This document shows, piece by piece, positions 7,734 to 37,404 of a stretch of 42,705 nucleotides of DNA. A model generated the notes under the pieces. It was not told where the DNA came from, ran no database searches, and saw only the letters and a list, made by a program, of their open reading frames with translations. Made by a program: the position numbers and the translations under genes. How positions within the stretch are numbered: position 1 is the first letter of the stretch; each line of letters begins with the position of its first letter. The stretch is from Deltaproteobacteria bacterium (GTDB lineage Bacteria > Desulfobacterota > DSM-4660 > Desulfatiglandales > Desulfatiglandaceae), in NCBI GenBank assembly GCA_029933075.1, contig JAOZOW010000005.1, positions 5,008-47,712 on the forward strand, written 5' to 3'.

Positions 7734-10700
7734 ATGAGTAAAAATATGCTTAAAGGGTCTGTTATGGTTGTAGGTGCCGGCATTGCCGGCATTCAGGCCT
7801 CGCTGGATCTGGCCGATTCAGGTTACTTTGTTTATCTGGTGGAGAAAAGCCCCGCCATCGGCGGTGTCATGGCTCAGCTGGACAAGACCTTCCCCACCAA
7901 CGACTGTTCCATGTGAATTATCTCCCCTAAACTGGTCGAGGTCGGCCGGCATCTCAACATCGAATTGCTCACCCTCTGCGAAGTGACAGCAATTGATGGC
8001 GATGAAGGGAATTTCACTGTAGAGATCAGGAAATCCCCTCGATATGTGGATGTGGAAAAGTGCATTGGATGCGGCACATGTGCTGAAAAATGTCCCGCCA
8101 AAACTTCTGATGAATTCAACGAGGGTCTGTCCAAGAGAAAGGCCATCTATGTCCCCTATCCCCAGGCCGTGCCCCTGAAATATGCCATTGACGCACAAAG
8201 ATGCATCTACTTTCAGAAAGGGAAATGCAAGGCATGCGAGAAGTTCTGCCCTACGGGCGCCATCAAGTTTGATGACCAGGAGGAGAACATCTCCCTGAAT
8301 GTAGGTTCTATCATTTTTACAGCCGGACTTAAGGCCTTTGATCCTTCAGGCCTTGCAACCTACGAATATACACGGCTCCCCAATGTGCTCACAAGCATTG
8401 AGTTTGAACGGATTTTATCTGCAGGCGGGCCCACCGCTGGACATGTGGTGCGGCCTTCCGACAATAGAGAACCCAGGAAAATCGCATGGCTCCAGTGTGT
8501 GGGTTCTCGGGATTTGAACCGGTGTGACAATCCCTACTGCTCCTCCGTGTGCTGCATGTATGCCATCAAAGAAGCGATGATAGCCAAAGAGCATGCACGC
8601 AATGAACTCCAGACCACCATATTTTTCATGGACATGCGGACACATGGGAAGGATTTTGAAAAATATTATGAACGCGCAAAATCTGAAGGAATAAATTTCG
8701 TCCGCTCCCGGATCCATTCCATTTCAGAGGCCGACCAGACGGGGACCCTATCGCTCAAATATGCTACCGAGTCCGGCCAGCTCAAGGAGGAGGAATTCGA
8801 TCTGGTCGTCCTATCAGTTGGCATGGAACCATCCCCTGACGCGATTAAGGCGGCTGAAAGGCTCGGAATCGCCCTTAACGAGCACGAGTTCGTAAGCACA
8901 GAGGATACTAACCCTGTGCGGAGCTCAAGGGCCGGGATTTATGTGGCCGGGGTAGCCCAAGGATGTAAAGACATCCCTCAGTCGGTCATGGAAGCAAGCG
9001 CTGCTGCCTGCTGTGCAGGTATTAGTCTGGCGCCTTCACGGGGTACCCTCGTCAGGGAAAAGGAATTCCCGAAAGAAAAGACCTTCGGAGACGAAGAACC
9101 CCGTATCGGGGTATTTGTTTGCAATTGCGGGAGCAATATCGGTGGCATAGCCGATGTTCCCGCCATCGCCCAATACGCCAAGAGCCTGCCCCACGTGACC
9201 TACGTAGAGGAAAATCTCTTCACATGCAGCCAGGACACCCAGGAAAAGATTGTGGAATCCATAAAGGAGCATGGCTTGAACCGGATTGTTGTGGCTGCAT
9301 GCACTCCGAGGACCCACGAACCGCTGTTCCAGGAAACCATCCGCAATGCAGGACTCAACCCTTACCTCTTTGAGATGGCCAACATAAGGAACCAGTGCAC
9401 ATGGGTGCATTCGAGCAGCAAGGAGGAAGCCACCGAGAAATCCAAAGACTTAGTGAGGATGGCTGTTGCCCGAGCCTCTTTGCTTGAGCCGATCCCCGAC
9501 CTGTCGGTGCAAGTGAGCAAATCGGCTCTCGTGATAGGAGGAGGGGTAGCAGGCATGACAGCGGCCCTCAGCCTTGCCGACCAGGGATTCCCCGCCACCA
9601 TAGTGGAAAAGTCCGAAGCGCTCGGCGGCTCCGCAAGGGAAATAGAGAGGACCTGGACAGGCGCCAAGGTCCAGCCCTATCTTTCCGCGCTCGTGGAAAA
9701 GGTGAAAGCACATCCAGATATCCAGGTCATGCTGGAATCCGAGGTGGTGAATGCTTCCGGCTTCGTGGGAAATTTTGAAACCGAGGTTGCCACAAAGGAA
9801 GGGCCCCAGAGCATCAGTCACGGAGTTGTGATCGTAGCCACCGGAGGCCATGCAACCGAGCCGGAGGAATATCTTTACGGAAAGAACCCACGGGTGACAC
9901 GCTGGCATGAGCTTGAAGGAAACCTGAAAAAATTCCAGGGCTCAAACAGCATCGTCTTCATCCAGTGCGTTGGATCAAGGGATGAGAAAAGGCCCTATTG
10001 TTCCAGGATCTGCTGCACCACATCCGTGACCCAGGCAGTGGCTGTAAAAGAGGAGTATCCTCAAAGGGATGTCTATATCCTTTACCGCGACATGAGGACA
10101 TTCGGCGAAAGGGAGCTGCTTTACAGAAAAGCCAGAGAAAAAGGCGTCATTTTCATCAGATATTCTTTAGAGCGCAAGCCCCGGGTCGAGGAAACAGAAG
10201 AGGGACTCCTCCAGGTAATCGTCTTCGACCCCATCCTTCAGAGGGAGCTAAATATCAAAGCGGACCTCGTGAATCTGGCCACTGCCATCGAACCGGCGGA
10301 AACTGACAAGATAGCCGCCATTTACAAGCTCGCGATAAATGAAGAAAATTTCTTCATGGAGGCGCATGCCAAACTGCGGCCTGTGGAGTTTGCATCGGAA
10401 GGCATTTACCTGTGCGGCCTCGCCCATTACCCGAAGCCCTTGGATGAGAGTATTGCACAGGCTATGGCGGCTGCGAGCCGTGCGGCAACCGTGCTTTCAA
10501 GACCTTCGATCCATGTCTCGCCCCTTGTCTCCCAGGTCGATGCGGAAAAGTGCATCGGATGCGGCCTCTGCGTAGAGGTTTGCGGGTTCGGCGCCATCCT
10601 GCTGGAAGAGGTGGAGGGGAAAGGAATGCGTGCCAAGAACATACCGGCCTCCTGCAAGGGGTGCGGGCTCTGTGCGGCCTCCTGCCCCCAGAAGGCCATT

Positions 10701-10757
10701 GATATGCTTCATTTCCGGGATCAGCAGATCATTGCTTCAGTGTGCGCTGCTCCGTGA
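7734..10757 (+). CDS. hdrA: HdrA-like flavin/Fe-S protein 1, selenocysteine-containing
   Basis: A 1007-residue HdrA-type electron-transfer protein; the in-frame TGA at 7914-7916 (codon 61) is read as selenocysteine. Order of parts: FAD site GAGIAG (14-19); TFPTNDCSM[13 protein letters not shown], where other HdrA have the second Cys of NDCSMC, a ligand of an unusual 4Fe-4S cluster; ferredoxin motifs [12 protein letters not shown] (from about 110) and [13 protein letters not shown]; a second HdrA-like half with [12 protein letters not shown] and a further FAD site [10 protein letters not shown]; and two C-terminal 4Fe-4S motifs (CIGCGLC, CKGCGLC). It is longer than the roughly 650-aa methanogen HdrA and is in effect a double HdrA. 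No hdrB or hdrC is adjacent; mvhD follows. The ATG has GGGAGA upstream. The expected role is flavin-based electron bifurcation or confurcation in the cytoplasm. Confidence 0.93.
7932..7949 (+). promoter_or_regulatory. SECIS-like hairpin of hdrA1
   Basis: CTGGTC-GAGGTC-GGCCGG folds into a 6-bp stem (two G-U pairs) with loop GAGGUC. It begins after a 15-nt gap from the TGA. The loop AGGUC equals the core of the E. coli fdhF SECIS loop, which SelB recognises. Confidence 0.75.
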
Positions 10758-10802: not shown

Positions 10803-10842
10803 CTGGTGACGGCAGGAATCCTTTATCTGACGAGGTGAATAT

Positions 10843-11592
10843 ATGACAGATTATGAACCCAAAATCATCGCGTTCCTGTGCAACTGGTGTGCTTATGCAG
10901 GGGCCGATCTGGCGGGCGTATCAAGACTTCAGTACCCCGCAAACCTGAGAACCGTCCGGGTGATGTGCTCGGGTCGCGTTGACCCGGTCTTCATCATCAA
11001 GGCCCTTAGAGAGGGCAGCGACGGGGTCCTGGTAAGCGGGTGACATATTGGCGACTGCCATTACCTGGAAGGTAATGTTCAGGCGGAAAAGAAGATCAGA
11101 ATGACACGCAAGCTCCTGGAGCTGGCCGGTATAGGCAAAGAGAGACTGCACCTGGCATGGGTATCTTCAGCAGAGGCCCAGCGCTTTGTGGAGGTGGCCA
11201 CAAGCGTCATTGAGTCCATCAAGATGCAGGGGCCGCTGGATCGCATTGCTCACGAAATGTCGCTTTCAGCCTGCGAGATGACATTGGACAGTGAAACCCT
11301 TCGCTGGCTCGTTGGCAAAGAGGTTAAAATCACCTCGCAAGGTGATATATACGGACGTCAGTGGAGCGTTGAATCCTATGAGTCTTTTCTGGACCATACG
11401 CTTGAACGGGAGTACCAGAAAAACCTTATTTATCTGGCCATAGATCAGGGTTGTAGTTCGGTGAAAGATATCAGCGAGAGAATCGGGCTTGACCTGAAAC
11501 GGATATCCTACCTCCTGGCGGACCTGGAAAAAACGGGCAGGATCGAATTCAGGGGAATGGAAGATAGAAAACCGGTATTCGCAGTGTTGTAA
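10843..11592 (+). CDS. mvhD: MvhD-like 2Fe-2S protein 1 with selenocysteine and winged-helix tail
   Basis: A 249-residue MvhD-type protein, which normally passes electrons to HdrA through a 2Fe-2S cluster. The N-terminus [18 protein letters not shown] keeps both Cys. An in-frame TGA at 11041-11043 (codon 67) falls in VLVSG-Sec-HIGDCHY, replacing the Cys of the family motif GCHxGDCHY; the reading frame and homology continue unbroken after it. Residues from about 195 to the end ([19 protein letters not shown]...[14 protein letters not shown]) look like a winged helix-turn-helix domain absent from the two shorter mvhD copies in this window. The start is the ATG at 10843 after GACGAGGTGAAT. It lies between hdrA1 and hdrA2, which follows after 9 nt. 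Confidence 0.88.
11059..11077 (+). promoter_or_regulatory. SECIS-like hairpin of mvhD1
   Basis: CATTACC-TGGAA-GGTAATG is a perfect 7-bp stem with a 5-nt loop having G in its second position. It starts 15 nt after the TGA at 11041-11043, the same gap seen in the hdrA genes, although the sequence is unrelated. Confidence 0.7.
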
Positions 11593-11601
11593 GGAGTCAC
11601 C

Positions 11602-14600
11602 ATGGCATCGGCTAAAAACGGAAAAAGCGGATCGGTGATGGTCGTGGGAGCCGGGATAGCCGGCATGCAGGCATCCCTCGACCTTGCCAGTTCGGACTAT
11701 TATGTCTATCTGGTTGAAAAGGCCCCTACTATTGGCGGCCTCATGGCACGCCTGGACAAGACCTTTCCAACAAACGACTGCACCATGTGAATCATCTCGC
11801 CCAAACTGGTCGAGGTCGGCCGGAACCTGAACATACAGTTGATCACCAACAGCGAGGTGAAAAGTGTCGAGGGCGAGCCAGGGAATTTCTCTGTCACCCT
11901 GACAAACCATCCACGTTACATTGACTTGGAAAAGTGCACGGGCTGCGGAGACTGTGCAAGACACTGTCCCGTGGCCGCCGTGAATGAAGTCAACAAGGGA
12001 CTCGATGACCGCAGGGCCACGTACATCGAATATGCACAGGCCGTCCCGCTTGCCTATGCCATTGACACCGATGTGTGCATCGGCTGCGGCCTTTGCGAGA
12101 ATATCTGCCTGGCAAAGGCCATCAAATATGACGACAGGGAAAGGGAAACCCAGGTCAATGTTGGGTCCATAATCCTCTCCCCGGGAACCCAGGGCTTTGA
12201 TCCCTCGGGCCTGGATTTTTACGGCTACGGAAAATACCCCAATGTGGTGACAAGCGAGGGCTTCGAGCGGATTCTATCCGCTGGGGGCCCCTATTTCGGG
12301 CATGTCATGCGGCCCCTTGACCGAGAGGAGCCCAGGAGCATAGCTTGGCTCCAGTGCGTGGGATCAAGGGACCCTAACACCTGCGGAAACGGGTATTGTT
12401 CCTCCGTATGCTGCATGTACGCCGTTAAGGAGGCAATGATCGCAAAGGAACACATCCATGGCGAACTGGACACGGCGATCTTCTACATGGACATGAGGAC
12501 CTTTGGGAAGGATTATGAAAAATACCTCCTGCGGGCCCAGGAAAAGGAAGGCATCCGTTTCATCCGATCAAGAGTGCACACTGTCACGGAGATCCCCGAG
12601 ACAGGGGACCTGCGGGTGGTGTATGTAGACGAGTCGGGCGAGAGGAAGGAAGAGGTCTTTTCCATGGTCGTCCTCTCCGTAGGGCTCACCATTCCCGACA
12701 CAGCCGTGGAATTGGCAAAACGCCTGAACATAGACCTCGACAGGTATAATTTCGTGGCCACCGACCCCTTTTCGCCGGTATGTACCTCCCGCCCCGGCAT
12801 ATATACCTGCGGCGTATTTCAGGGCCCCAAGGATATCCCGGGATCGGTTACCGAGGCAAGCGCCGCAGCCTGTCTGGCAGGCGCTGATCTGGCGGAGGCA
12901 AGGGGAACGGAGAGCAAAAGCGTTGAGCTTCCAGAAGAGAGGGACGTCTCAGGCGAGGCGCCGAGGATAGGTGTATTTGTCTGCAACTGCGGCATCAATA
13001 TCGGTGGCATAGTGGATGTTCCTGCCGTAACCGAATATGCCGCCAAACTCCCCAATGTAGTTCACGCGGAACACAACCTCTTCACATGCAGCCAGGATAC
13101 CCAGGAGATCATAAAGGAGAAGATCAAGGAGCACAACCTTAACCGGGTGGTTGTGGCATCCTGCAGCCCCAAGACCCACGAGCCCATGTTCATGGAGACT
13201 CTCGAGGCCTGCGGGCTCAACAAATACCTGTTTGAGATGGCCAACATCAGGAATCAGGACTCCTGGATCCACTCAAAATCTCCCGAGCTTGCAACACAAA
13301 AGGCAAAGGATCTCGTGCGCATGGCCGTGGCCAGGGCTGATACCCTGAAACCCCTCAGGGAAAGGGTCATACAGGTAGTCCAGCGCGCCTTAGTGATCGG
13401 GGGCGGCATTGCCGGAATGAATGCGGCACTGAGCCTTGCCAAGCAGGGGTTTGAGGTCTCACTGATTGAGAAGGAGCACGAGCTGGGAGGATTCTGCCGG
13501 AAACTGCACCACACGATCGAAGGAAACGATATCCAGGAGTATCTAAGAAAGCTTATCTCGGAGGTGAATGAAAACGACAAGATTGAAGTCCTCACGGATG
13601 CGCGGGTCGCAAGTTTCGGCGGTTACAAGGGTAATTTCACGACCCGGGTCGTGGTGGGGCCAGACGGTGAGGAGCGCAGCATCCCACACGGGGTAATCGT
13701 GGTTGCAACAGGAGCCAAAGAGTACCGGCCCAAAGAATATCTTTACGGCGAGGACGAGCGGGTCGTGACACAGACCGAACTGGCTGACATCCTCGAGGAA
13801 AAAGGCGCCTCCCATCTTTCCAGCGTTGTAATGATCCAATGTGTCGGCTCCCGCAATGATGAATACCCTGAATGCTCCCGCATATGCTGTCAGAGTGCCG
13901 TCAAAAACGCCCTCCACATCAAGCGGCTCCATCCTGAAACCCAGGTCACAGTGCTTTACAGGGACATGAGGACCTATGGTCTTCTCGAGGACTACTACAC
14001 CGAGGCAAGGGAAAAGGGCGTGATGTTCGTCCGGTTCGACAAGGACTCTCCACCGGAACTTACTCCCACAGCGGATGGATTGCTCATAAGAGTAAAGGAT
14101 CACGTCCTGCAAAGGGACATCCAGATCAGGGCGGATCTCCTGGCTTTGAGTGCCGGTATGAGGGCGGAAGATACATCGGAGCTGAGCGGCATCATGAAAC
14201 TCAACCGCAACCCGGAGGGTTATTTCATTGAAGCGCACGTGAAACTCCGCCCCGTTGACATGCCGGGGGACGGCATCTTCCTTTGCGGCACAGCCCACGG
14301 CCCCAAGTTGATCTCCGAGGCCATCTCCCAAGCATATGCGGCGGCTTCAAGGGCCACCACCTTTCTTGCAGTCAAGGAGATAAAGCTCTCGGCCATCACC
14401 GCTCGCGTGGATACCGAACATTGCGTCAGGTGCCTGACCTGCGTGCGATCCTGCCCCTTTGAGGTGCCGGTATATGATCCGGATAAAAAAGAGATTGTAA
14501 TTGATGAGGCCCTGTGTCACGGATGCGGCATCTGCGCATGCGTGTGCCCGAGGCAGGCCATACAACTGAATTTCTACGAGGACGATCAGATAAACAGCAA

Positions 14601-14631
14601 GATTGACGCTTTGCTGGCAGGGGGAATGTGA
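11602..14631 (+). CDS. hdrA: HdrA-like flavin/Fe-S protein 2, selenocysteine-containing
   Basis: A 1009-residue paralogue of hdrA1 with TGA at 11788-11790 (codon 63) in TFPTNDCTM-Sec-IISPKL. Features: FAD motif GAGIAGMQA; 4Fe-4S motifs [12 protein letters not shown] and [11 protein letters not shown], a fuller ferredoxin domain than in hdrA1 and hdrA3, where the second motif reads [22 protein letters not shown]; second FAD site [11 protein letters not shown]-terminal [12 protein letters not shown] and [12 protein letters not shown]. The ATG at 11602 is preceded by AAGGAG at 5 nt. The stop overlaps the next gene's ATG (TGATG), so hdrA2 and mvhD2 are translationally coupled. It probably transfers electrons between MvhD, ferredoxin and the MetF/MetV reductase in the same operon. 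Confidence 0.93.
11806..11823 (+). promoter_or_regulatory. SECIS-like hairpin of hdrA2
   Basis: The 18-nt CTGGTC-GAGGTC-GGCCGG hairpin identical to that of hdrA1 and hdrA3, again after a 15-nt gap from the TGA at 11788-11790, although third-codon positions around it have diverged between the genes. Confidence 0.75.
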
Positions 14632-15095
14632 TGTCGGAATTTGAACCCACCATTATAGCTTTTTGCTGTGATTACTGAGGATACTCCGCAGCGGACCTGG
14701 CAGGTTCCATGCGACTGGAATATCCCTCGAACATCAGAATCATCAGGGTCCCCTGCACGGGGAAAGTCGATGTAATGCACCTTCTGAGGGCCATCCAGAA
14801 GGGTGCCGACGGCGTCTATGTGGTGGGCTGCCTGGAGGGTACGTGTCACTATAACGAAGGAAACACCAGGGCCCGTGAAAGGGTAGAATATGTCCGGATG
14901 CTGCTCGAGGAGATCGGAATGGAGGGTGACCGGGTAAGGATGTACAATCTCTCCTCTGGAGAGGGGCCTACCTTTGCGGCCTATGCCAGGGAGATGACCG
15001 AGCATATCAAGAAGCTCGGCCCCAACCCTCTAAAAACCGCGGAACAGAACTCGGGGAAAAAGGGAGGAGGCAAACGGGAAGCCCAAGCGGCATAG
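14631..15095 (+). CDS. mvhD: MvhD-like 2Fe-2S protein 2, selenocysteine-containing
   Basis: A 154-residue MvhD protein that starts at the ATG overlapping the hdrA2 stop. The in-frame TGA at 14676-14678 (codon 16) lies in IIAFCCDY-Sec-GYSAADLAGSMRL, replacing the second Cys of the N-terminal C-x-x-C that mvhD1 retains as CNWC. The second ligand region VVGCLEGTCHY keeps its Cys residues. The Sec therefore sits at a different cluster position from that of mvhD1. The C-terminal winged-helix extension is absent; the protein ends in a Lys/Gly-rich tail. It is expected to carry electrons between HdrA2 and the MetV/MetF reductase encoded just downstream. Confidence 0.88.
14693..14708 (+). promoter_or_regulatory. 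SECIS-like hairpin of mvhD2
   Basis: GGACCT-GGC-AGGTTCC gives a 6-bp stem with one bulged U and a small G-starting loop. It begins 15 nt after the TGA at 14676-14678. The surrounding 24 nt are identical to the same place in mvhD3. Weaker than the other hairpins. Confidence 0.55.
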
Positions 15096-23661: not shown

Positions 23662-23679
23662 AAAGAAAGGATGAAGGTA

Positions 23680-26600
23680 ATGGCGGCCCAGGAAACCAAG
23701 CCTTTGAACGGTTCCGTACTGGTGGTAGGAGGCGGTATCGCCGGCATGCAGTCCGCACTTGACCTTGCTGAATCAGGGTTCTTCGTGCACCTGGTGGAAA
23801 GATCTCCATCAGTAGGCGGTGTCATGGCCCAGCTGGACAAGACCTTTCCCACCAACGACTGCGCCATGTGAATTCTATCGCCCAGACTGGTCGAGGTCGG
23901 CCGGCATCTCAATATACAGCTCCATACCCTTTCCGAGCTTGTAGATCTTCGTGGCGAGAAAGGGAACTTCCAGGTGGACATCGTCAGGCACCCCCGATAT
24001 GTGGACATGGAAAAGTGCATAGCCTGCGGGACCTGTTTCGAAAAATGCCCCAGGAAGGTAGAAGACGAATACAATCAAGGCCTTATGAAAAGAAAAGCCA
24101 TTTATGTGCCCTACTCCCAGGCCGTACCGCTCAAATACGTATTGGACAGGGAAAACTGCATCTTTTTCCAAAAGGGGAAATGTCGGGCCTGTGAAAAATT
24201 CTGTCCTACAGGCGCTGTCAATTTCGAAGACAAAGAAGAAAAGGTCACCCTTAATGTGGGGGCCATTATACTGACACCTGGCTTCAGGGCCTTCGACCCA
24301 TCAAAATATGACACATACCATTACGCCCAGCATCCCAACGTGGTGAGCAGCCTTGAGTTTGAGCGTATCATGAGCTCTACGGGCCCTTATTTGGGACACC
24401 TCAAAAGACCATCAGATGAAAAAGAACCAAAGAAGATCGCCTGGCTCCAGTGCGTGGGATCCCGCGACCTGAACCGCTGCGACAACAGCTATTGCTCTTC
24501 GGTCTGCTGCATGTATGCCATCAAGGAAGCCATAATAGCAAAAGAGCACAGTGAAGAAGACTTGCATGCCGCCATCTTCTTCATGGACATGCGCACCTTC
24601 GGGAAGGACTATGAGGTCTATTACAACAAGGCCAAAGAGGAGTATGGGATAAGGTTTGTCCGATCCCGCGTCCATACCATTGATCCCGCCCCTGATGGCG
24701 ACGACCTCATAGTCCAGTACTCCGATGAGGAGGGAATGATCACCAGGGAGCGGTTCGACATGGTGGTGCTTTCCGTGGGAATGGAAGCGGATCCTCACAC
24801 CGCAGAGCTTGCCCGTCGCATCGGAATCTCCCTCAGCTCCCATTCCTTCGGGGCCTATCATCCCTTTACACCGGTTGAAACCTCCATTCCCGGGATCTAT
24901 GCATCCGGCGCTTTTACAGGCCCCAAAGACATCCCTTCATCGGTCACCGAAGCCAGCGCAGCAGCCTGTGCGGCTGGGATGGCCCTCAGTGCGGCCAGGG
25001 GAACTCTGACCCGGGAAAAGGAAATCCCCCCCGAGAAAGATGTCTCCGGAGAAACGCCGAGAATAGGGGTATTCGTCTGCAACTGCGGTACGAACATCGG
25101 AGGGATTGTGGATGTCCCCGGGGTTGCGGACTACGCCGCCACCCTCCCTCGGGTGGTACATGTGGATCAAAACCTCTTTTCCTGCGCCCAGGACACCCAG
25201 GAAAAGATCAAAGGCATCATTAAAGAGCACGGGCTCAACCGCGTTGTCGTGGCCGCCTGCTCTCCTATAACGCACGGCCCCTTATTTCAGGAGACCATCC
25301 AACAATGCGGCCTTAACAAATATTTATTCGAGATGGCCAATATCAGGAACCAGGACTCCTGGGTCCACAGCGACGATCCGACCTCAGCAACCGAAAAAGC
25401 CAAAGATCTTGTACGGATGGCCGTGGCAAGGGCATCGTTGTTGAGACCCATGGGGGCGAAAAAAATCTCCATTAACAGGCGGGCGCTCGTGATAGGCGGA
25501 GGGGTGTCCGGAATGACCGCTGCTCTGGGGCTGGCAGACCAGGGGTTCGATGTGATGATCGTCGAAAAGGAACCGCATCTGGGCGGATTTGCAAGAGAGT
25601 TGACCCGCTCTATTGAGGGCGAAGATATCAATGAATTCGTCCAAGATCTTTTGGACAGGGTCACACGTCACGATAGAATCCAGGTCCTCACTGAATCCTT
25701 GATCGTGGGTTTCAGCGGGGCAAAAGGGAATTTTACCACAGAGGTGCTGGTAGGCCCCGGCATGTATGAGAGGAAGATTGACCACGGCGCACTGATCTTG
25801 GCCACGGGCGCTAAGGAATACGAACCTAAGGAGTTCTTATATGGAGAGGATGAGAGGGTGCTTACGCAAATTGAGCTCGGGAAAAGGCTTGAAGAGAAAG
25901 GGGCATCGGATCTTGGCAACGTGGTCATGATCCAGTGCGTGGGCTCCAGGAACGAAGAGTATCCTAACTGTAGTCGCGTCTGCTGCCAGAATGCCGTCAA
26001 AAACGCCCTCCATATCAAGGAACTCAATCCCGAGGCCGATGTCTTCATCCTGTATCGGGACATCAGGACCTACGGCTTGATGGAAGACTACTACCGGGAG
26101 GCCAGGAAGCAGGGGGTTCTCTTTTTCAGGTTCGATTCAAATGACCCCCCGCGTGTCGAGCCGGGTGAGAAGGGGTTGATGGTCACATTCCGGGACCATA
26201 TCCTTCAAAGAGACATCAGGATTGCCGCCGATATCCTTACACTGAGCGCCGGAATGCGCGCCGAAGACACCGAGGAGCTGGCTTCCATTCTTAAGGTGGC
26301 ACGAAATCAGGATGGGTATTTCATGGAAGCCCATGTGAAGCTGCGACCCGTAGACATGGCCAGTGAGGGCATCTTTGTGTGCGGTACGGCCCACGGCCCA
26401 AAATTGATCTCGGAATCCGTGGCGCAGGCCATGGCGGCAGCATCGCGTGCCGCCACGTTCCTGTCTCAAGTCGAGATCACGCTCTCCGTGGTGACGGCAA
26501 GGGTGGATGAGGAGAAATGCGCCGCATGCTTAGTTTGCGTGCGATCCTGTCCTTATGGAGTGCCCCGCATCAACCGCGACGGCGTAAGCGAGATAGACCC

Positions 26601-26724
26601 GGCCCTGTGCCGAGGCTGCGGCGTCTGTGCTGCCGAATGTCCTGCCAAGGCGATAGAACTCGGCTGGTACGAAGACGATCAGGTGCTGAGTAAAGTGGAT
26701 GCATTGCTGGAGGGGGTACTATGA
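23680..26724 (+). CDS. hdrA: HdrA-like flavin/Fe-S protein 3, selenocysteine-containing
   Basis: 1014 residues with TGA at 23869-23871 (codon 64) in TFPTNDCAM-Sec, replacing the Cys of NDCxMC. Parts: FAD site GGGIAGMQ; 4Fe-4S motifs [12 protein letters not shown] and [24 protein letters not shown]; second FAD motif [11 protein letters not shown]-terminal [12 protein letters not shown] and [12 protein letters not shown]. In the ferredoxin and C-terminal regions it resembles hdrA1 and hdrA2 respectively, so it may be a mosaic. The ATG at 23680 is preferred to one three codons upstream because the latter touches its AAAGG ribosome site and because MAAQETK matches the hdrA2 start. The stop overlaps the mvhD3 ATG (ATGA). 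Confidence 0.93.
23887..23904 (+). promoter_or_regulatory. SECIS-like hairpin of hdrA3
   Basis: Same 18-nt CTGGTC-GAGGTC-GGCCGG hairpin as in hdrA1 and hdrA2, after a 15-nt gap from the TGA at 23869-23871. The preceding bases differ (ATTCTATCG against ATTATCTCC in hdrA1), so conservation is concentrated on the hairpin. Confidence 0.75.
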
Positions 26725-27155
26725 GCCAGAATTTCGAGCCGATCATTATTGCCTTTTGCTGCCAGTTCTGAGGCTATACTGCAGCGGACCTGGCAGGTTC
26801 CATGAGACTCCGGTACCCGAGCAACATCAGGATCATCCTGCTGCCCTGTACGGGCAAGGTGGACGTTATCCACCTGCTCAGGGCCTTTGAAAAAGGCGCG
26901 GATGGGGCATGTATCGTGGGTTGCCTGGAAGGGGAGTGTCATTACAACAATGGCAACATCAGGGCACGCAAGAGGGTCGAGCAGGTGCGGCAGATTCTGG
27001 ACAGCATCGGGATCGGAGGTGAGCGGGTTCAGATGTACAATGTGTCCTCAAGTGAAGCCCCTCGCTTTGTCAAAATTGTCGAGGAGATGACAGAGAAAAT
27101 CATCTCCATGGGTCCCAATCCCATAAAAATTGCCAGGAAGAGGAAGGCCGCATAG
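26721..27155 (+). CDS. mvhD: MvhD-like 2Fe-2S protein 3, selenocysteine-containing
   Basis: 144 residues, overlapping hdrA3 by 4 nt. TGA at 26769-26771 (codon 17) lies in IIAFCCQF-Sec-GYTAADLAGSMRL, the same position as in mvhD2, replacing the second Cys of the N-terminal CxxC. The second ligand motif is VGCLEGECHYN, with Cys. No winged-helix tail. It is the electron-transfer partner of HdrA3 in module B, and metV2-metF3 follow after a 76-bp spacer containing a hairpin. Confidence 0.88.
26786..26801 (+). promoter_or_regulatory. SECIS-like hairpin of mvhD3
   Basis: GGACCT-GGC-AGGTTCC, identical to mvhD2, with one bulged U. It starts 15 nt after the TGA at 26769-26771. Confidence 0.55.
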
Positions 27156-30863: not shown

Positions 30864-31256
30864 CTATTGAAGGCTGTTTTGAATGGCATCTAAAAGTTCA
30901 TCCGGCTCGGGTGGCTTTTCAATGTAGGCAGCGGGCTCGGGGATCTTTTCCCCCTTATATTCATCAAGGATCTTCTGGGAGTGAAAAAAGGTCTTCTTGG
31001 ACAATGCGGATAGCATGATAACAGGAATCTCTTTAAGCTCCGGATCAGTCATGAGGGCTCGATACATATTAATTCCGCTCTCCTTTGGCATCATTATGTC
31101 CAGTATGATAAGGGAAGGTTTCTCCTGCCGTGCCGCCTCCAGCCCTTCCTTGCCATCCATTGCCACAATGGGTCTGTACCCATTTGTTTCCAGCAATGTT
31201 GAAATAAAGGTCCTAACGTCAAGTTCGTCATCCACAACCAGGACTTTTTTTGCCAT
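30864..31256 (-). CDS. Single-domain response regulator
   Basis: 130 aa with VVDDELD, phospho-Asp in LIILDIMMP, Ser in MLSALS and Lys in YIEKP. An insertion of roughly 20 residues (TFFHSQKILDEYKGEKIPEP) precedes the Lys strand, recalling the regulator at 28885. The frame runs back to 31349, but ATG 31256 with GGAGG 9 nt upstream is the better start, since the longer form would overlap the Usp gene. Probably partner of the adjacent kinases. Confidence 0.9.
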   Translation of the reverse strand: MAKKVLVVDDELDVRTFISTLLETNGYRPIVAMDGKEGLEAARQEKPSLIILDIMMPKESGINMYRALMTDPELKEIPVIMLSALSKKTFFHSQKILDEYKGEKIPEPAAYIEKPPEPDELLDAIQNSLQ

Positions 31257-31285
31257 ACTCGCTTCCCTCCGGTGGTTTTGCACGC

Positions 31286-31783
31286 TTAGGATATTTTTCC
31301 CGGTAATGTAAACCGCTTGGCAGGATTTCTGATAGCAATAACATGGCAATGGGCGAATTTGGACACATTGCTCACGGTACTACCATGTACCATGCGGTCC
31401 TGCTCAGACTTGCCAAGTGCTCCCATTACAATGACGTCAACATCATTCTTTCTGGCGTAACGGATGATTTCCACATCCGGGGCACCGCTCTTTACTGCAA
31501 AAACATAATTGTCAAAGTCGCCGAGTTTCTCTTCGTATTCATCTTTCAAAGCCTTTTCTGCTGCCTTTTCAATCCCCTCATCGAAAAAGGCCTCACCCCC
31601 TTCCCTGCCATGGGGCACGTGTTCGTCTACCACATGTCTCATGTAGGTATAGGATGAATGGGGAATATGGAGAATATGAAGCCTGGCGTTATACCTCTTG
31701 GCCAAATCAAGCGCATGATGAAAGGCGATATTGGCGTCTTCTGAGAAATCGGTGCAGAACAGGATGTTCTTGTACTCTATCAT
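31286..31783 (-). CDS. Universal stress protein (UspA family)
   Basis: 165 aa, single Usp domain. ILFCTDFSEDANIAFHHALDLA opens the fold, and GALG-X9-GSTVSNV near the C-terminus fits the G-2x-G-9x-G(S/T) ATP-binding motif, so this is the nucleotide-binding type. It sits between the receiver-kinase hybrid and a response regulator in the leftward signalling group. His-rich sequence (HILHIPHSSYTYMRHVVDEHVPHGREGG) is unusual and could bind metal. Confidence 0.9.
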   Translation of the reverse strand: MIEYKNILFCTDFSEDANIAFHHALDLAKRYNARLHILHIPHSSYTYMRHVVDEHVPHGREGGEAFFDEGIEKAAEKALKDEYEEKLGDFDNYVFAVKSGAPDVEIIRYARKNDVDVIVMGALGKSEQDRMVHGSTVSNVSKFAHCHVIAIRNPAKRFTLPGKIS

Positions 31784-31848: not shown

Positions 31849-32991
31849 TCATGAAGCACCGTTTTTCTCCGGCAGCCTGATCACAAATCTCGTACCCTTC
31901 GCCTTCCTGGATTGTACCTCAATAACGCCACCATGCCCCTCGATGATTTTTTTTGTGATCATGAGACCCAGTCCTGTCCCCTGGCTTCCTTTGGTGCTGA
32001 AAAACTCCTGAAATACCTTTTGCAAGGTATCCTCATCCATACCACATCCATTGTCTTCCACTTGATACTCCACGGCCCAGCCTTCTGGTCTTCGGGATCG
32101 AAGACAAATCTTGCCTTCTCCGGGGGTACATGAGAGATCTGTACAGGCATCAATGGCATTTGCAACGAGGTTCAAGAGACAGCGGTGAATCCCCTCGGGG
32201 TCCAGCCATACATGGGGCAAACCTTCCTCCAGTCTCAGATCAAGGCTTACCCCTTCCTTTTCGCACCGGAGGCGCATCAGGCTAGCCACCTCCCTTGCAG
32301 GCTCATTGGGGTCACAGAGCCGGTAATCGGGGGCTCTTTCCTTGCTGTAAGCAAGGAGGTCCAGGGCAAGCTCCTTAATTTTCTTCAAATTGTTTCTAAC
32401 CATCTCCCAGCCCTGATGCAGGTACTTTTCATTGTTCAGCTCAATCCCCTTTTCCAGGACAAATGCCCCGCCCGTGAGCCCTCCCGTTATATTCTTGATG
32501 GCATGGGCAAGACCCGCCACTGTTTGCCCTACTGCCGCCAACCGCTCAGCTTCTATTAACCGGGCGGTCTTCTCCTCCACAAGCCTTTCAAGATCCTCGG
32601 TATATTCTTTCAGTTGCCTTTTCAGGGCAATCTTTTCTTTGACCCTTTTGAGGGCGACTTCCAGGGCCTCATCATTTATGGGTTTGGTAATAAAATCCGC
32701 TGCATCAGACTTCAGGCTCTGGATGGCCAAGTCCATATCGCCATGCCCCGTGATCATTATCACTTCCGTGTCCGGACTCTCCTTTTTGATCTTCCGCAAA
32801 AGTTCAACACCGTCCATACCCGGCATTTTGATGTCAGTCAACACAATGGAAGGCTTGGCTTTAATAAAGATCCGAAAAGCTTCTTCCCCGTTTTCCGCTG
32901 ACAGCACCTGGTAGCCGCTGTCTGAGAGGGAAATACCCAGTACCTTCCTGATACCTTCCTCATCATCAACCAAAAGAATTTTATGTTCCAT
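31849..32991 (-). CDS. Receiver-histidine kinase hybrid
   Basis: 380 aa. An N-terminal receiver (LVDDEEG, Asp in IVLTDIKMP, Lys in FITKP) is joined by a long coiled coil (residues about 120-150) to a kinase core whose phospho-site reads GLAHAIKNITGG, with HATPase motifs DNGCGMD and GTGLGLM. The HAIKN form is less common than HEINN but occurs in receiver-first kinases. Its 5' end overlaps the upstream heme-motif kinase by 11 nt, so the two are co-translated and may form a phosphorelay. Confidence 0.92.
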   Translation of the reverse strand: MEHKILLVDDEEGIRKVLGISLSDSGYQVLSAENGEEAFRIFIKAKPSIVLTDIKMPGMDGVELLRKIKKESPDTEVIMITGHGDMDLAIQSLKSDAADFITKPINDEALEVALKRVKEKIALKRQLKEYTEDLERLVEEKTARLIEAERLAAVGQTVAGLAHAIKNITGGLTGGAFVLEKGIELNNEKYLHQGWEMVRNNLKKIKELALDLLAYSKERAPDYRLCDPNEPAREVASLMRLRCEKEGVSLDLRLEEGLPHVWLDPEGIHRCLLNLVANAIDACTDLSCTPGEGKICLRSRRPEGWAVEYQVEDNGCGMDEDTLQKVFQEFFSTKGSQGTGLGLMITKKIIEGHGGVIEVQSRKAKGTRFVIRLPEKNGAS

Positions 32992-35263
32992 TGCCCTCGT
33001 TCGAAACAGGGAACCGGATAATAAACGTGGATCCTTGACCCTCGCGTGTTTTCACCTCAATAGTTCCGTCATAGTCTTGCACAATGCCGTAGCTTATGGA
33101 AAGTCCCAGTCCCGTCCCCCTTCCCACTTCTTTCGTGGTGAAAAAAGGCTCAAATATCTTGTCCACCTGAGACTTTGGGATTCCTCGGCCGGTATCGCTT
33201 ATCTCGATTTTCACAAAGCCATCTATCAAATGGGTCTTAACGACAATCCGTTTGGCTGCGTCTTTGCGGTCAACTCGCCCCCATTTTTCTTCAATGGCGT
33301 CCCTTGCATTGATAAGCAGATTAATAAATACCTGCTCCAATCGATTGGCATTAGCCATAACCGGGGGCAGGTTTTCCTGCAATTCTTTGACCACTTCAAT
33401 CTCTCTCAATTTGAGCTGTTGGCTGAAAATCTCAAGGGCTCTGTTTAGGGCGACGTTAACCTGAACCCCTTCTCTCTTGACCTCGGATTTACGACCAAAC
33501 TCCCTCATATGATTAATAATCTTGGATGCGCGGTCTACGTGGCTGCCGATTTCTTCGGCCATGGTTCTCAAGATATCGTATTTGATTTCCTCCTTCCTTC
33601 GAACCTTCCTGATGAGGTAACTGCTTGCTGTCTTGATTACAGACAAGGGCTGGTTCAATTCATGTGCCACACCGGTGGCCATCTCCCCGAGGGTAGCCAT
33701 CTTGCTTGCCTGTATAAGCTGCTGCTCGGCCATGAGGCGTTTGGTGATATCGCTTGTAGTGACCAACAGCACTCCCTTTCCACCATACTCGGAGCAGGAA
33801 ACGCGGATATTCACATAGATGATCTGCCCATCTTTTCGAATATGTTTTACCTGATTCAAAATATTGGTGGTTCTTACCTTTGATGCATATTCCTGGCGGC
33901 TGTCCTCTTCAAACAGGTCAAGAAACGGCCTCATTAGCAACTCTTCTTTCCCGAATCCGTATACGGATGTGACGCTCTCATTACAATCAAGGATTTTAAG
34001 GTTGTCTCCATCGAGGACAAAAACCGGGTTGGGGATGGTGTTGAAAATCGTCCGGTACTTCTCCTCCGATTTTTTGGCCTCCTTCTCCAGGCGTTTCACC
34101 TCTGTTATATCGAGGCACAGCTCCATGGCGGCGACAATTTCCCCCTTGGAATCTCTGATGGGAGAAGTCCTTACCATCCAGTAGGATCTTGAACCATCCT
34201 TGCTGACTCCCGACTCCTCACTGTAATGGGATCTCCCGTCATCGAAAGTCCTTAATACAGGGCATACCTCACATCTTTCCGATCTGCCTTTATAGGCCTT
34301 ATAACAGTAATCTCCCTCCTGGGGCCCAAATTGCTCCGCGAATTCACGATTGAACCGCAGGAGTTTGAGATCTCTGTCTTGTACCGTGATGTAGCAGGGA
34401 GCAAGCTCAAAGATGTTTTGATACTCCTCTTTCTGTTTATTCATTTCTTCTTGTTTCTTGGCGATCTCTTCACCCATCTGGCTGATTGCGTATGCCAGCT
34501 CTCCCATCTCATCGCTCCGGTTAACCTCCACATTAAAATCATATTCCCCTCGGCCGATATGCCGGGTCCCCCTGATTAACTTCTTTATGGGTTGGTTCAC
34601 GAATCGCATTATAAAAATGCCTATGATGCCGGAAGTCACAATGAAGATAAAAATGGCGAAGCTGATAATCCCCTTCTGGTAGGCCATCACCTTTTTATCC
34701 GCATCCTTCAGAGATATAACCACGTCAAGGGCGCCCAAGACCTTTTTCCCCTCTGGGTGGACATGACAGGAGTTTCCGGAGCAACCCGGTTCGTTGTAAA
34801 TGGGACTGATGATCCCAAGGAGGCGATAGCCGTCTTGGGACCCAAATATCCGCGTCCTTTCCTCTAATGCCAGAGAATGGCTGGGAGGGGACGACCGATG
34901 GCAGATGTCACAGGCCTCTGCCTTGATATTGGTCTTCTGGTCCACCTCTTCAGGCCTATTGGAGAATTTGATCTGCCCTTGTTTATTGTAAATACGGATA
35001 TTTTCTATCTCCTCGAGTCGGGCTATATTTTGTATGATCTGGTTGATGTCGTCCCTGGAATTCAACATCATGGCATAGTGAGTACCCAGCTTAATAGTAT
35101 TTCCCAGCCTTTCCCCTTCCATCACCATGTCTCTCATGGCCTCCTCTTTTTGGTATTTGATATTGAAATAGGCCCAGACAGAGAGACTGATGAGAATGAT
35201 CAGCCCAACCCAAAAGATCAACCTAAAGCTAAGAGTATTATAGAAATTGGCGAACCGTTCCAA
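32981..35263 (-). CDS. Membrane histidine kinase with periplasmic heme c motifs, HAMP and two PAS
   Basis: 760 aa. Two transmembrane helices (about 12-32 and 199-220) flank a periplasmic sensor with CDICH (118-122), a standard heme c site, and CSGNSCH (161-167), a C-X4-C-H variant. A HAMP domain, a PAS with Cys residues (CYKAYKGRSERCEVCP), a second PAS, HisKA with VAHELNQPL and HATPase with DTGRGIP and GTGLGLS follow. A redox or gas-sensing role through covalent heme is likely. The start is a TTG at 35263; no ATG is available, and TM1 needs the sequence right after it. First gene of the leftward signalling group. Confidence 0.9.
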   Translation of the reverse strand: MERFANFYNTLSFRLIFWVGLIILISLSVWAYFNIKYQKEEAMRDMVMEGERLGNTIKLGTHYAMMLNSRDDINQIIQNIARLEEIENIRIYNKQGQIKFSNRPEEVDQKTNIKAEACDICHRSSPPSHSLALEERTRIFGSQDGYRLLGIISPIYNEPGCSGNSCHVHPEGKKVLGALDVVISLKDADKKVMAYQKGIISFAIFIFIVTSGIIGIFIMRFVNQPIKKLIRGTRHIGRGEYDFNVEVNRSDEMGELAYAISQMGEEIAKKQEEMNKQKEEYQNIFELAPCYITVQDRDLKLLRFNREFAEQFGPQEGDYCYKAYKGRSERCEVCPVLRTFDDGRSHYSEESGVSKDGSRSYWMVRTSPIRDSKGEIVAAMELCLDITEVKRLEKEAKKSEEKYRTIFNTIPNPVFVLDGDNLKILDCNESVTSVYGFGKEELLMRPFLDLFEEDSRQEYASKVRTTNILNQVKHIRKDGQIIYVNIRVSCSEYGGKGVLLVTTSDITKRLMAEQQLIQASKMATLGEMATGVAHELNQPLSVIKTASSYLIRKVRRKEEIKYDILRTMAEEIGSHVDRASKIINHMREFGRKSEVKREGVQVNVALNRALEIFSQQLKLREIEVVKELQENLPPVMANANRLEQVFINLLINARDAIEEKWGRVDRKDAAKRIVVKTHLIDGFVKIEISDTGRGIPKSQVDKIFEPFFTTKEVGRGTGLGLSISYGIVQDYDGTIEVKTREGQGSTFIIRFPVSNEGNGT

Positions 35264-35367: not shown

Positions 35368-36672
35368 TTATCTCTCTCCATCTTTTGGGATCATCGCTTC
35401 GGGGATCTCCATGAGTTCAGATATGGCTTCCTTGAAGTGAATAGCTTTTATGCCCAGATCATATTCCTTGGATAGATCCCTGATCTGGTCAATACAGTTA
35501 TGACACGGGACAAAAACGATTTTTGCCCCCGTTTCTTTGATCTGCTCGGCCTTGATTTTTCCTCCTTTCAGCCGATATTTCTTCATCTCGCCCCCCATGG
35601 GCATGGCGCCCCCGCCACCGCAGCAACAGTAATTGTAGTTGCCCTGGTATTTCATGGGCCGAAAGTCTTCAGAAAGCATTTCAGCCAACAGGCGGTTTTT
35701 CTCGGCCAGCCCCCCGCTCCTGACAACATTACAGGGATCCTGCAGGGTGGTGGGTTCCTTGATCTTTTTCCTTAGCTTTATGCGGCCTTCGGCCACATAG
35801 TCGTGAAAAAGCTCCACGGAATGGATTACTTCCGGCTTCGGGGCGTATCCCAGCCAGGAAGGCGCTTCGAACCGAAGCGCTCGATACGCATGGCCTCATT
35901 CGGTGATAGCGATCTTCTCAACCTCCAGCTCCTCAGCCCTCTTGAAAGTATTCTCCACCAGCATCTTAGAAGTCGCTAAGTCACCGACAAACATGGACAG
36001 GTTGGTATCATCCCAGCCTGGCTTGCTTGGGACGGTCCAATCTTCCCCGGCCACATGGAATATCTTGGCTACCTCCATAATATCCTGGGGGTAAAATTTC
36101 GGCTCTCTGGCATTAACCGTATACATGATCCTCGCCCCCTTTTTGTCTATTGGAATCTTAAGGTCCTGTAATTCGTCCGCTGTTTCCTCCTCGCACCACT
36201 CAATGGTCTCCACCCAGTCTTCATCGCTGATGGCCATTTGGTTACCTGTCCGTTTGTAGTTCTCAATGGCCCTAATAAGGCCCTCAGGCGCCATTCCCTG
36301 CGTAAAAAGGAGACCCCGCAACAGGGAGATAAGAAGTGCGATGTCAATTCCGAAGGGACAGAAGAGTGTACAGCGCCGACACATATTGCATTCGTAATAG
36401 ACAGTTTCATAGACCTTTTGGAGGTATTTCCTGTCCACTTTTCCTTTCTTTCTCAGGATATCCCTGATAAACCGCACCTTATAAGAGGGGATCATTTGTG
36501 AATTCCCCTCATGGGCGTTATAGAAATGGCACGTATTGGCACACATGCCGCAGTGTGTGCAAATTTCCACCCAGGTTTTGAATCTTGCTCCCATCTTGGG
36601 CCTTAAAAAGGTCATGATCTCCGCTGGGTCTATCTTATCCACCAATCCTCTCTTAGTTTCTTCTTCAGCCAT
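35368..36672 (-). CDS. HdrD/DsrK/TmcB-like Fe-S oxidoreductase, selenocysteine-containing
   Basis: 434 residues with one in-frame TGA at 35896-35898 (codon 259). N-terminal 4Fe-4S motifs are CTHCGMCANTCHF (38-50) and CNMCRRCTLFCPF. The first CCG-type domain reads IAITE-Sec-GHAYRALR, where DsrK and HmcF-type proteins have ECGH; the second has DPCN, NYCCCGGGG and VPCHNC. These are the expected ligands of the catalytic cluster site in HdrB/HdrD-type proteins. Homology and frame continue across the TGA, and a perfect hairpin follows it. The ATG at 36672 has AAGGAG 6 nt upstream; GTG at 36702 is less likely. The adjacent cytochrome b suggests a DsrMK- or TmcBC-like membrane complex exchanging electrons between quinones and cytoplasmic carriers. 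Confidence 0.87.
35862..35880 (-). promoter_or_regulatory. SECIS-like hairpin of the DsrK/TmcB-like gene
   Basis: On the minus strand GCGCTTCG-GTT-CGAAGCGC is a perfect 8-bp stem with GGU at its tip. It starts exactly 15 nt after the TGA, as in the hdrA and mvhD genes, though the sequence is different. Confidence 0.82.
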
Positions 36673-36738: not shown

Positions 36739-37404
36739 TCAGCTTATATATTCTCTTCTCCCGAACTCAATTCCTGTAGCGGCCCGGGAAAAAAAGAAAA
36801 GAATATAGTGAGAAAGTCTGGTAAAAGGCATCAAGACCAGCATCAACTCCCCGCAAAGCATATGGATCAGCTGCATATTGTCACCTATGAAGCCGAGTCG
36901 ATCCAGGGTTCCATGTGTCACGAAATAGCCGGTTGCAAAGGGCAATGCTGTTACGACAAGGAGCAAGTAATCTGAAAAGGTCGAAATAAGACGAATATCA
37001 GGGGAAAAGATGCGCCTGAGCAAAAAGAAAAGGGCGATTGCAAGGAAAATGAGAGTCATCCAGTCGGCCAGCCCGTCCGGGATCGGAGTCCAGGACCACT
37101 CGAAACGCGATTCCTCCCAGAGCGTGATATGGCCTGAGAGCCAGATGGGCACCACGAGTAGACAGATGTGAAAGATATAGACCAGCGCTACGAAGACCGG
37201 GTTTTTCACTACATCCTTGTTGAAGGGCAACAACCAGCGGGCGTATGTGGCAAGCACATATTTCCACTTGAAATATTTGTATATGACCGGATCTGTTTTA
37301 CGGGATATAAAGAACAACATAACAGCTCTGATGATACTGCCGATCGCAAAGGTCAAAAACGCGATCCACAAAAGAGGCCCCTCAACGAATGAATAGAAGT
37401 CCAT
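36739..37404 (-). CDS. Membrane cytochrome b subunit (DsrM/TmcC/NarI-like)
   Basis: 221 aa with five hydrophobic helices: about 8-34, 68-95, 110-130, 144-165 and 175-208. Histidines placed in or near helices (FHICLL, LSGHI, LIHML, RLSHYI) can bind two b hemes, as in NarI and DsrM. Such proteins oxidise or reduce menaquinone and pass electrons to a cytoplasmic DsrK/TmcB-type subunit, which is the next gene downstream (66 nt). The ATG at 37404 follows a CAGGAG close to the start and an AAGGAG further out. No TmcA cytochrome c3 or DsrJOP genes are next to it. Confidence 0.87.
   Translation of the reverse strand: MDFYSFVEGPLLWIAFLTFAIGSIIRAVMLFFISRKTDPVIYKYFKWKYVLATYARWLLPFNKDVVKNPVFVALVYIFHICLLVVPIWLSGHITLWEESRFEWSWTPIPDGLADWMTLIFLAIALFFLLRRIFSPDIRLISTFSDYLLLVVTALPFATGYFVTHGTLDRLGFIGDNMQLIHMLCGELMLVLMPFTRLSHYILFFFSRAATGIEFGRREYIS

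Follow-up and report, generated by a model that had tools for sequence, protein, structure and literature searches.

The window analysed here, a stretch of 42,705 nt of DNA, carries on its minus strand a gene (35368..36672) for a TmcB/HmcF-like iron-sulfur subunit of 434 aa that is read as containing selenocysteine (Sec, U259). Translation through the TGA gives a single 434-residue frame from 36672 to 35368 with only one TGA, at 35896..35898 (minus strand; TCA on the plus strand), which falls at residue 259 in the context EKIAITE-U-GHAYRALRF. ORF calling with table 11 returns two ORFs, 36702-35896 with the Fe-S part and 35817-35368 with the CCG part, the very split that the initial annotation had foreseen; genes of this type can be expected to appear often in annotations as two such fragments. 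Pfam recognizes a dicluster ferredoxin and one CCG domain. On the same strand are encoded two cubane [4Fe-4S] motifs formed by invariant columns (C38-C41-C44-C48 and C95-C98-C101-C105; 36358..36561), a degenerate first CCG domain (approximately residues 182-262; 35888..36129) in which U259 is the sole canonical cluster cysteine position left, and an intact second CCG domain (35494..35733) with the ligands C314, C349, C350, C390 and C393.

Directly upstream lies a gene for a TmcC/HmcE-like membrane anchor of the NarI fold (36739..37404, minus strand, 221 aa), which scores 214 bits for TmcC (cut-off 240) and 153 for HmcE (cut-off 275); it has five predicted transmembrane helices and five His residues that are invariant in 17 relatives. 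This neighbour bears out the proposal of a membrane-linked complex. Downstream, all on the minus strand, are four conserved neighbours: a PAS/HAMP sensor histidine kinase directly adjoining the gene (32981..35263), a response-regulator/histidine-kinase hybrid (31849..32991), a universal stress protein (31286..31783), and a single-domain response regulator (30864..31349). The tmc/hmc loci of Desulfococcus multivorans and D. vulgaris are reported to have a similar set of neighbours (PMC5109826).

The UGA is followed, 15 nt downstream, by a putative bacterial SECIS hairpin, GCGCUUCG-GUU-CGAAGCGC (35862..35880, minus strand), with its apical loop 24 nt after the UGA. In its DNA form, GCGCTTCG-GTT-CGAAGCGC, the hairpin has eight perfect pairs from 35880 to 35862, as originally reported, and the tip was fairly described as GGU, the loop being G-U-U, or GGUUC with the closing pair open. 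The isolated 22-mer has a folding energy of -12.6 kcal/mol (z -3.5). In a 49-nt context the predicted minimum for the window sequence alone is a slightly more stable, register-shifted fold, and the GCGCUUCG register is the only one conserved across relatives; since the energy of the single sequence is ambiguous in that context, the case for a SECIS rests on conservation. The 21 Sec-type relatives on the TmcB/HmcF side, including the isolate NaphS2, form 7-8 of the 8 pairs, where randomising synonymous codons would give 5.35 (per-sequence P 0.011-0.021), and 97.5% of the cells are paired in the Sec-type alignment versus 15-48% in slid controls. Seven double-sided changes preserve the stem, GC having become CG in four sequences and AU in three. 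The hairpin has decayed in 27 Cys homologues, with a mean of 2.7 pairs at its position. One Cys homologue with TGT (L011, G020:C219) keeps a 7/8-paired remnant in a genome that still has SelB, and by its pairing this remnant is a fossil SECIS that marks a recent Sec-to-Cys switch. An Rfam scan of the window gave no match, unsurprisingly given how short bacterial SECIS elements are.

The source genome, a 3.0-Mb draft that is 94% complete, encodes the machinery required: SelA (527 bits), SelB (76 bits, C-terminal wing domain), tRNA-Sec (73 bits) and SelD (383 bits), the latter with its own in-frame TGA that is read through. A tRNA scan of the 42,705-nt window itself found none. A second match to the tRNA-Sec model, at G000:C121:233-309 (L003), scores 50.3 bits, just above the gathering score, and is possibly a tRNA-Ser. 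Among relatives at 73-79% identity most have TGA and a few TGT or TGC, and on the TmcB/HmcF side a further 20 relatives have TGA at the residue-259 column together with the hairpin. Besides the machinery, two further marks of bacterial selenoproteins are found here, an in-frame UGA at a position where homologues have Cys, and a downstream SECIS hairpin with a G early in the apical loop that is absent in the Cys homologues. Selection on the coding frame was assessed by pN/pS, which is 0.09-0.17 downstream of the TGA versus 0.16-0.23 upstream, indicating strong purifying selection beyond the codon. The protein is taken to be a selenoprotein because a conserved hairpin with compensatory changes, the Sec machinery and purifying selection past the TGA coincide, and on these lines the decoding of UGA259 as Sec is considered established at the level of sequence. 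The initial annotation, which had placed a genuine Sec codon in ITE-Sec-GHAYR, is upheld by the recoding signal, the complete machinery and the recurrence of the codon; of the two findings it had named as telling against Sec, a genome without Sec machinery or a TGC or TGT in place of the TGA, neither was encountered, as SelA, SelB, SelD and tRNA-Sec are present and the same TGA stands in many independent genomes. The stop codon that interrupts the frame and the fragmentation of the genome into 172 contigs could be taken for the traces of a pseudogene, sequencing error or assembly artefact, a reading of vanishing probability that was dropped, being contradicted by the recurrence of both TGA and hairpin across many independent assemblies, that of the isolate NaphS2 among them, by the strong selection downstream and by the complete machinery. 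Genome-wide reassignment of TGA to another amino acid, for which no support was found, is just as negligible and was rejected, since TGA is the ordinary stop of the upstream TmcC-like gene and relatives with TGT or TGC at the same codon lose the hairpin. SelB is retained in several Cys-form genomes (G020, G051, G065, G101 and G141), and the switch to Cys is thus not simply a consequence of losing the Sec machinery.

Against the NCBIfam models, the protein scores best for HmcF (NF045711; 447.9 bits, equivalog cut-off 750), followed by TmcB (NF045724; 430.5 bits, equivalog cut-off 735) and DsrK (NF045796; 184.4 bits, cut-off 400, a test that also calls for a dsrMKJOP operon). All three scores lie below their cut-offs, and identity with true TmcB, HmcF or DsrK was rejected on that ground; a separate true DsrK is encoded in the source genome (734 bits), in the Cys form with the motif GGECGHMWR. 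By its sequence relationships, the window protein represents a third branch, so far without a name, within the TmcB/HmcF family. Two trees were built, one of 171 rows and a mixture-model tree of 59 rows, and in both the window clade falls on the TmcB/HmcF side, with support of 100/99 in the mixture-model tree, separate from a GlpC-like side (100/100). The window clade comprises 17 Sec and five Cys rows. TmcB-scoring and HmcF-scoring rows form their own clades, almost wholly Cys, the HmcF-scoring rows being Cys. Further EUGH genes, for which a search had been suggested, were found repeatedly on both the TmcB/HmcF and the GlpC sides, the TGA occupying the residue-259 column in members of the window clade, in its sisters and on the GlpC side. 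The Sec/Cys label changes 14-17 times on the trees, with at least 12-15 changes forced by well supported branches, counts that do not separate gain from loss. So many switches at one column argue for a redox or nucleophilic role of the residue, in the GlpC-like as well as in the membrane-linked families, and they provide matched Sec/Cys pairs for testing that role. Two lone candidate Sec members, L174 (G235, ITEUGHTYRA) and L176 (G158, LTEUGHPRFA), lie within or next to the true-TmcB clade, whose other members have Cys; their genomes are small (1.6-1.8 Mb).

The initial annotation had matched the TGA to the ECGH of DsrK/HmcF/TmcB-type proteins, and the alignment agrees: E258-C/U259-G260 is invariant in 47 relatives, as are the eight ferredoxin-type cysteines and C314, C349, C350, C390 and C393, and H261 is conserved in more than 90% of them. 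An AlphaFold model of the protein has a mean pLDDT of 92.7, and Foldseek places EtfD (9ojn) first among PDB structures (E 1.2e-13, TMq 0.72), followed by LutA and HdrB. The same search with the model of 35368-36672 (m16f547780208) also returned Asp/Glu racemases and glutamate racemase (E approximately 1e-3 to 1e-4, rmsd >7 A), which suggests that the paired CCG domains of the predicted structure resemble a racemase fold. With the protein alone as query, phmmer found only EtfD and fumarate reductase; a profile search of the PDB did better, and it found no solved DsrK, TmcB or HmcF structure. EtfD (9ojn) and HdrB (5odc) are the closest solved folds, and their five noncubane cysteines, together with His583 of EtfD, align with the window protein. 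In the profile alignment to EtfD, U259 corresponds to C581, H261 to H583, and the five cysteines of the second CCG domain to C637, C672, C673, C709 and C712. In EtfD, a single membrane protein, H583 completes the noncubane D2 cluster, and C503, C538, C581 and C584 hold a linear [3Fe-4S] cluster, D1 (PMC13083937); both EtfD and HdrB have Cys at the Sec position.

It had been proposed that the first CCG domain houses the cluster and that Sec is its selenolate ligand. In its fullest form, with Sec259 ligating a catalytic first-domain cluster that does disulfide chemistry as in HdrB, this reading draws on the alignment of U259 with a D1 ligand of EtfD at the first CxxC cysteine position of a CCG domain, and it is nonetheless improbable: the remaining D1 ligands, C503, C538 and C584, are replaced by A188, D222 and A262, one residue cannot hold a domain-1 cluster, and FadF and DgcB likewise lack the D1 cysteines (PMC13083937). 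With these partners gone, no cluster is expected in the first CCG domain, and the placement there was rejected; all five noncubane ligands are in the second domain, the only one of the two with a complete CCG motif, where HdrB/HdrD-type proteins have two. Given that absence, and with U259 two residues from H261, the lone Cys or Sec is most likely located beside the noncubane cluster of the second domain, and Sec259 probably acts there. A lone Sec beside the second-domain cluster would accordingly be a better description than a selenolate ligand. Of the mechanism first proposed, the Sec codon, the ECGH column and the membrane link stand, but the idea of a first-domain cluster falls.

The novelty implied at the outset is smaller than it seemed, for Sec in the same UGH motif has been published for a GlpC-like family (PMC1794560, PMC13188914), and HdrD/HdrF proteins with Sec have been reported as well (PMC2702500). 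The 'Fe-S oxidoreductase-like protein, PTHR43551, UGH' counts among the established Sec families (PMC13188914, Table 1), five GlpC Sec members were known in 2006 (PMC1794560), and Sec-containing HdrD4/HdrF2 are present in Desulfobacterium autotrophicum (PMC2702500). In the phylum sample, GlpC-type relatives occur in 113 of 395 genomes, with one TGA in most among the matches listed. The GlpC-like family, equated here with a tree clade by motif and description rather than by a shared accession, has the same Sec column (EUGHAYYATRL), the same dicluster and CCG architecture, and occurs in the same phylum. However, it is 33-34% identical to the window protein, which falls outside its clade, and it is reported from hdrA-frhD-frhG-frhA operons, whereas the window gene lies beside a TmcC-like anchor. 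In two loci (L097, 1906-3225; L094, 998-2317), a Cys GlpC-like relative is found just upstream of a Sec-type TmcC-TmcB pair. HdrD4/HdrF2, likened by description, also have Sec in HdrC+HdrB-type (CCG) proteins, but HdrF and HdrF2 are fused to transmembrane helices and the window module consists of two genes. DsrK shares the single Cys in GECGH of a degenerate first CCG domain, as well as the intact second one. No earlier report of Sec in HmcF/TmcB/DsrK-type subunits was found in an open-access library of papers, and, as far as its contents show, the new part is the branch, i.e. Sec in TmcB/HmcF-type subunits encoded with a TmcC-like anchor.

The module shares its architecture, ECGH column and adjacent TmcC-like anchor with TmcB of the Tmc complex, and an HmcE-like anchor with HmcF of the Hmc complex, its best-scoring family. 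On the other hand, neither TmcD nor the acidic tetrahaem cytochrome TmcA was found beside the window gene, and neither the hexadecahaem HmcA nor HmcB-D around it; a c3 cytochrome is encoded elsewhere in the source genome (85 bits). In three Sec-type relatives (L109, L110 and L113) the gene is followed immediately by one for a tetrahaem cytochrome, which scores above the TmcA cut-off in L113 (139/114) and below it in L109 and L110, and the upstream TmcC of L113, with 296 bits, exceeds the cut-off of 240. Tmc-like loci thus do include Sec forms, but with no TmcA next to it the module in the window is best called TmcBC/HmcEF-like. Immediately upstream, on the same strand, are genes for MetV and MetF, and such genes also stand beside the Sec-type L068 (G106) and a TmcB-type gene in L058 (G002:C93), so that the module might be the quinone-side partner of the Sec-rich MetFV-HdrA-MvhD methylene-THF reductase complexes encoded nearby, coupling electrons of the CO2/methyl branch to menaquinone. 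This is unlikely, if less so than a first-domain cluster: most window-clade loci with flanks keep the kinase, regulator and Usp neighbours, not MetFV, and in L068 the genes are arranged convergently. Approximately 5 kb beyond the MetV-MetF/TmcB-type genes of L058 lies a Sec GlpC-like gene.

Judged by sequence, the gene apparently broken by a stop is a selenium-containing Fe-S subunit of a small membrane electron-transfer complex of sulfate-reducer-type bacteria. Its product is probably the cytoplasmic Fe-S component of a membrane redox complex with two subunits, of the TmcBC/HmcEF type, in which UGA259 is selenocysteine and Sec lies beside the noncubane cluster. The parts shown at the sequence level are the recoding signal, the Sec machinery, the selection past the UGA, the Sec/Cys column, the motifs for two cubanes, the five-Cys CCG domain and an anchor of predicted haem-b type. 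The two cubanes would wire a noncubane [4Fe-4S] cluster, with C314, C349, C350, C390, C393 and probably H261 as ligands, to the haem b and the menaquinone of the TmcC-like anchor. Sec259 would sit at the rim of that cluster, two residues from H261, where it could serve as a nucleophile or redox residue toward a cytoplasmic partner (a DsrC-type thiol/disulfide or a flavoprotein) or, alternatively, as an exchangeable cluster ligand; iron binding, attack on a disulfide or trisulfide, and gating of electron entry are all conceivable roles. Selenium may speed the step up or increase its reversibility, and confer resistance to over-oxidation. Since sister genomes manage the same job with Cys, Sec would tune the activity rather than create it. 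A more specific version, that in a quinone-linked membrane complex Sec is a direct, reversible ligand of the noncubane [4Fe-4S] cluster or its partner in a catalytic dyad, making it a selenium-tuned cluster of the HdrB/EtfD type with repeated Sec/Cys swaps, is offered tentatively and is rather doubtful. TmcB, HmcF and DsrK have a central part in the electron flow of sulfate reducers, and no explanation is known to the authors for the invariant cysteine of their ECGH motif.

Other candidate Sec genes are present in the window. Sec in HdrA is a known family, and three HdrA-like genes on the plus strand (7734-10757, 11602-14631 and 23671-26724) have an in-frame TGA near 7914, 11788 and 23869, respectively, in the motif NDC[STA]M-U-I[IL]SP[KR]LVEVGR(H/N); standard ORF calling starts all three at internal TTG or GTG codons. 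Three MvhD/FrhD-like genes on the same strand (about 14628-15095, 26721-27155, and about 10837-11592) likewise contain an in-frame TGA, with the motifs FCCDYUGYSAADLAG and FCCQFUGYTAADLAG, while in the remaining one the TGA falls within a second motif, VSGUHIGDC. Together with the TmcB-like gene, these make seven candidate Sec genes within 42.7 kb, located around several copies of MetF and MetV.
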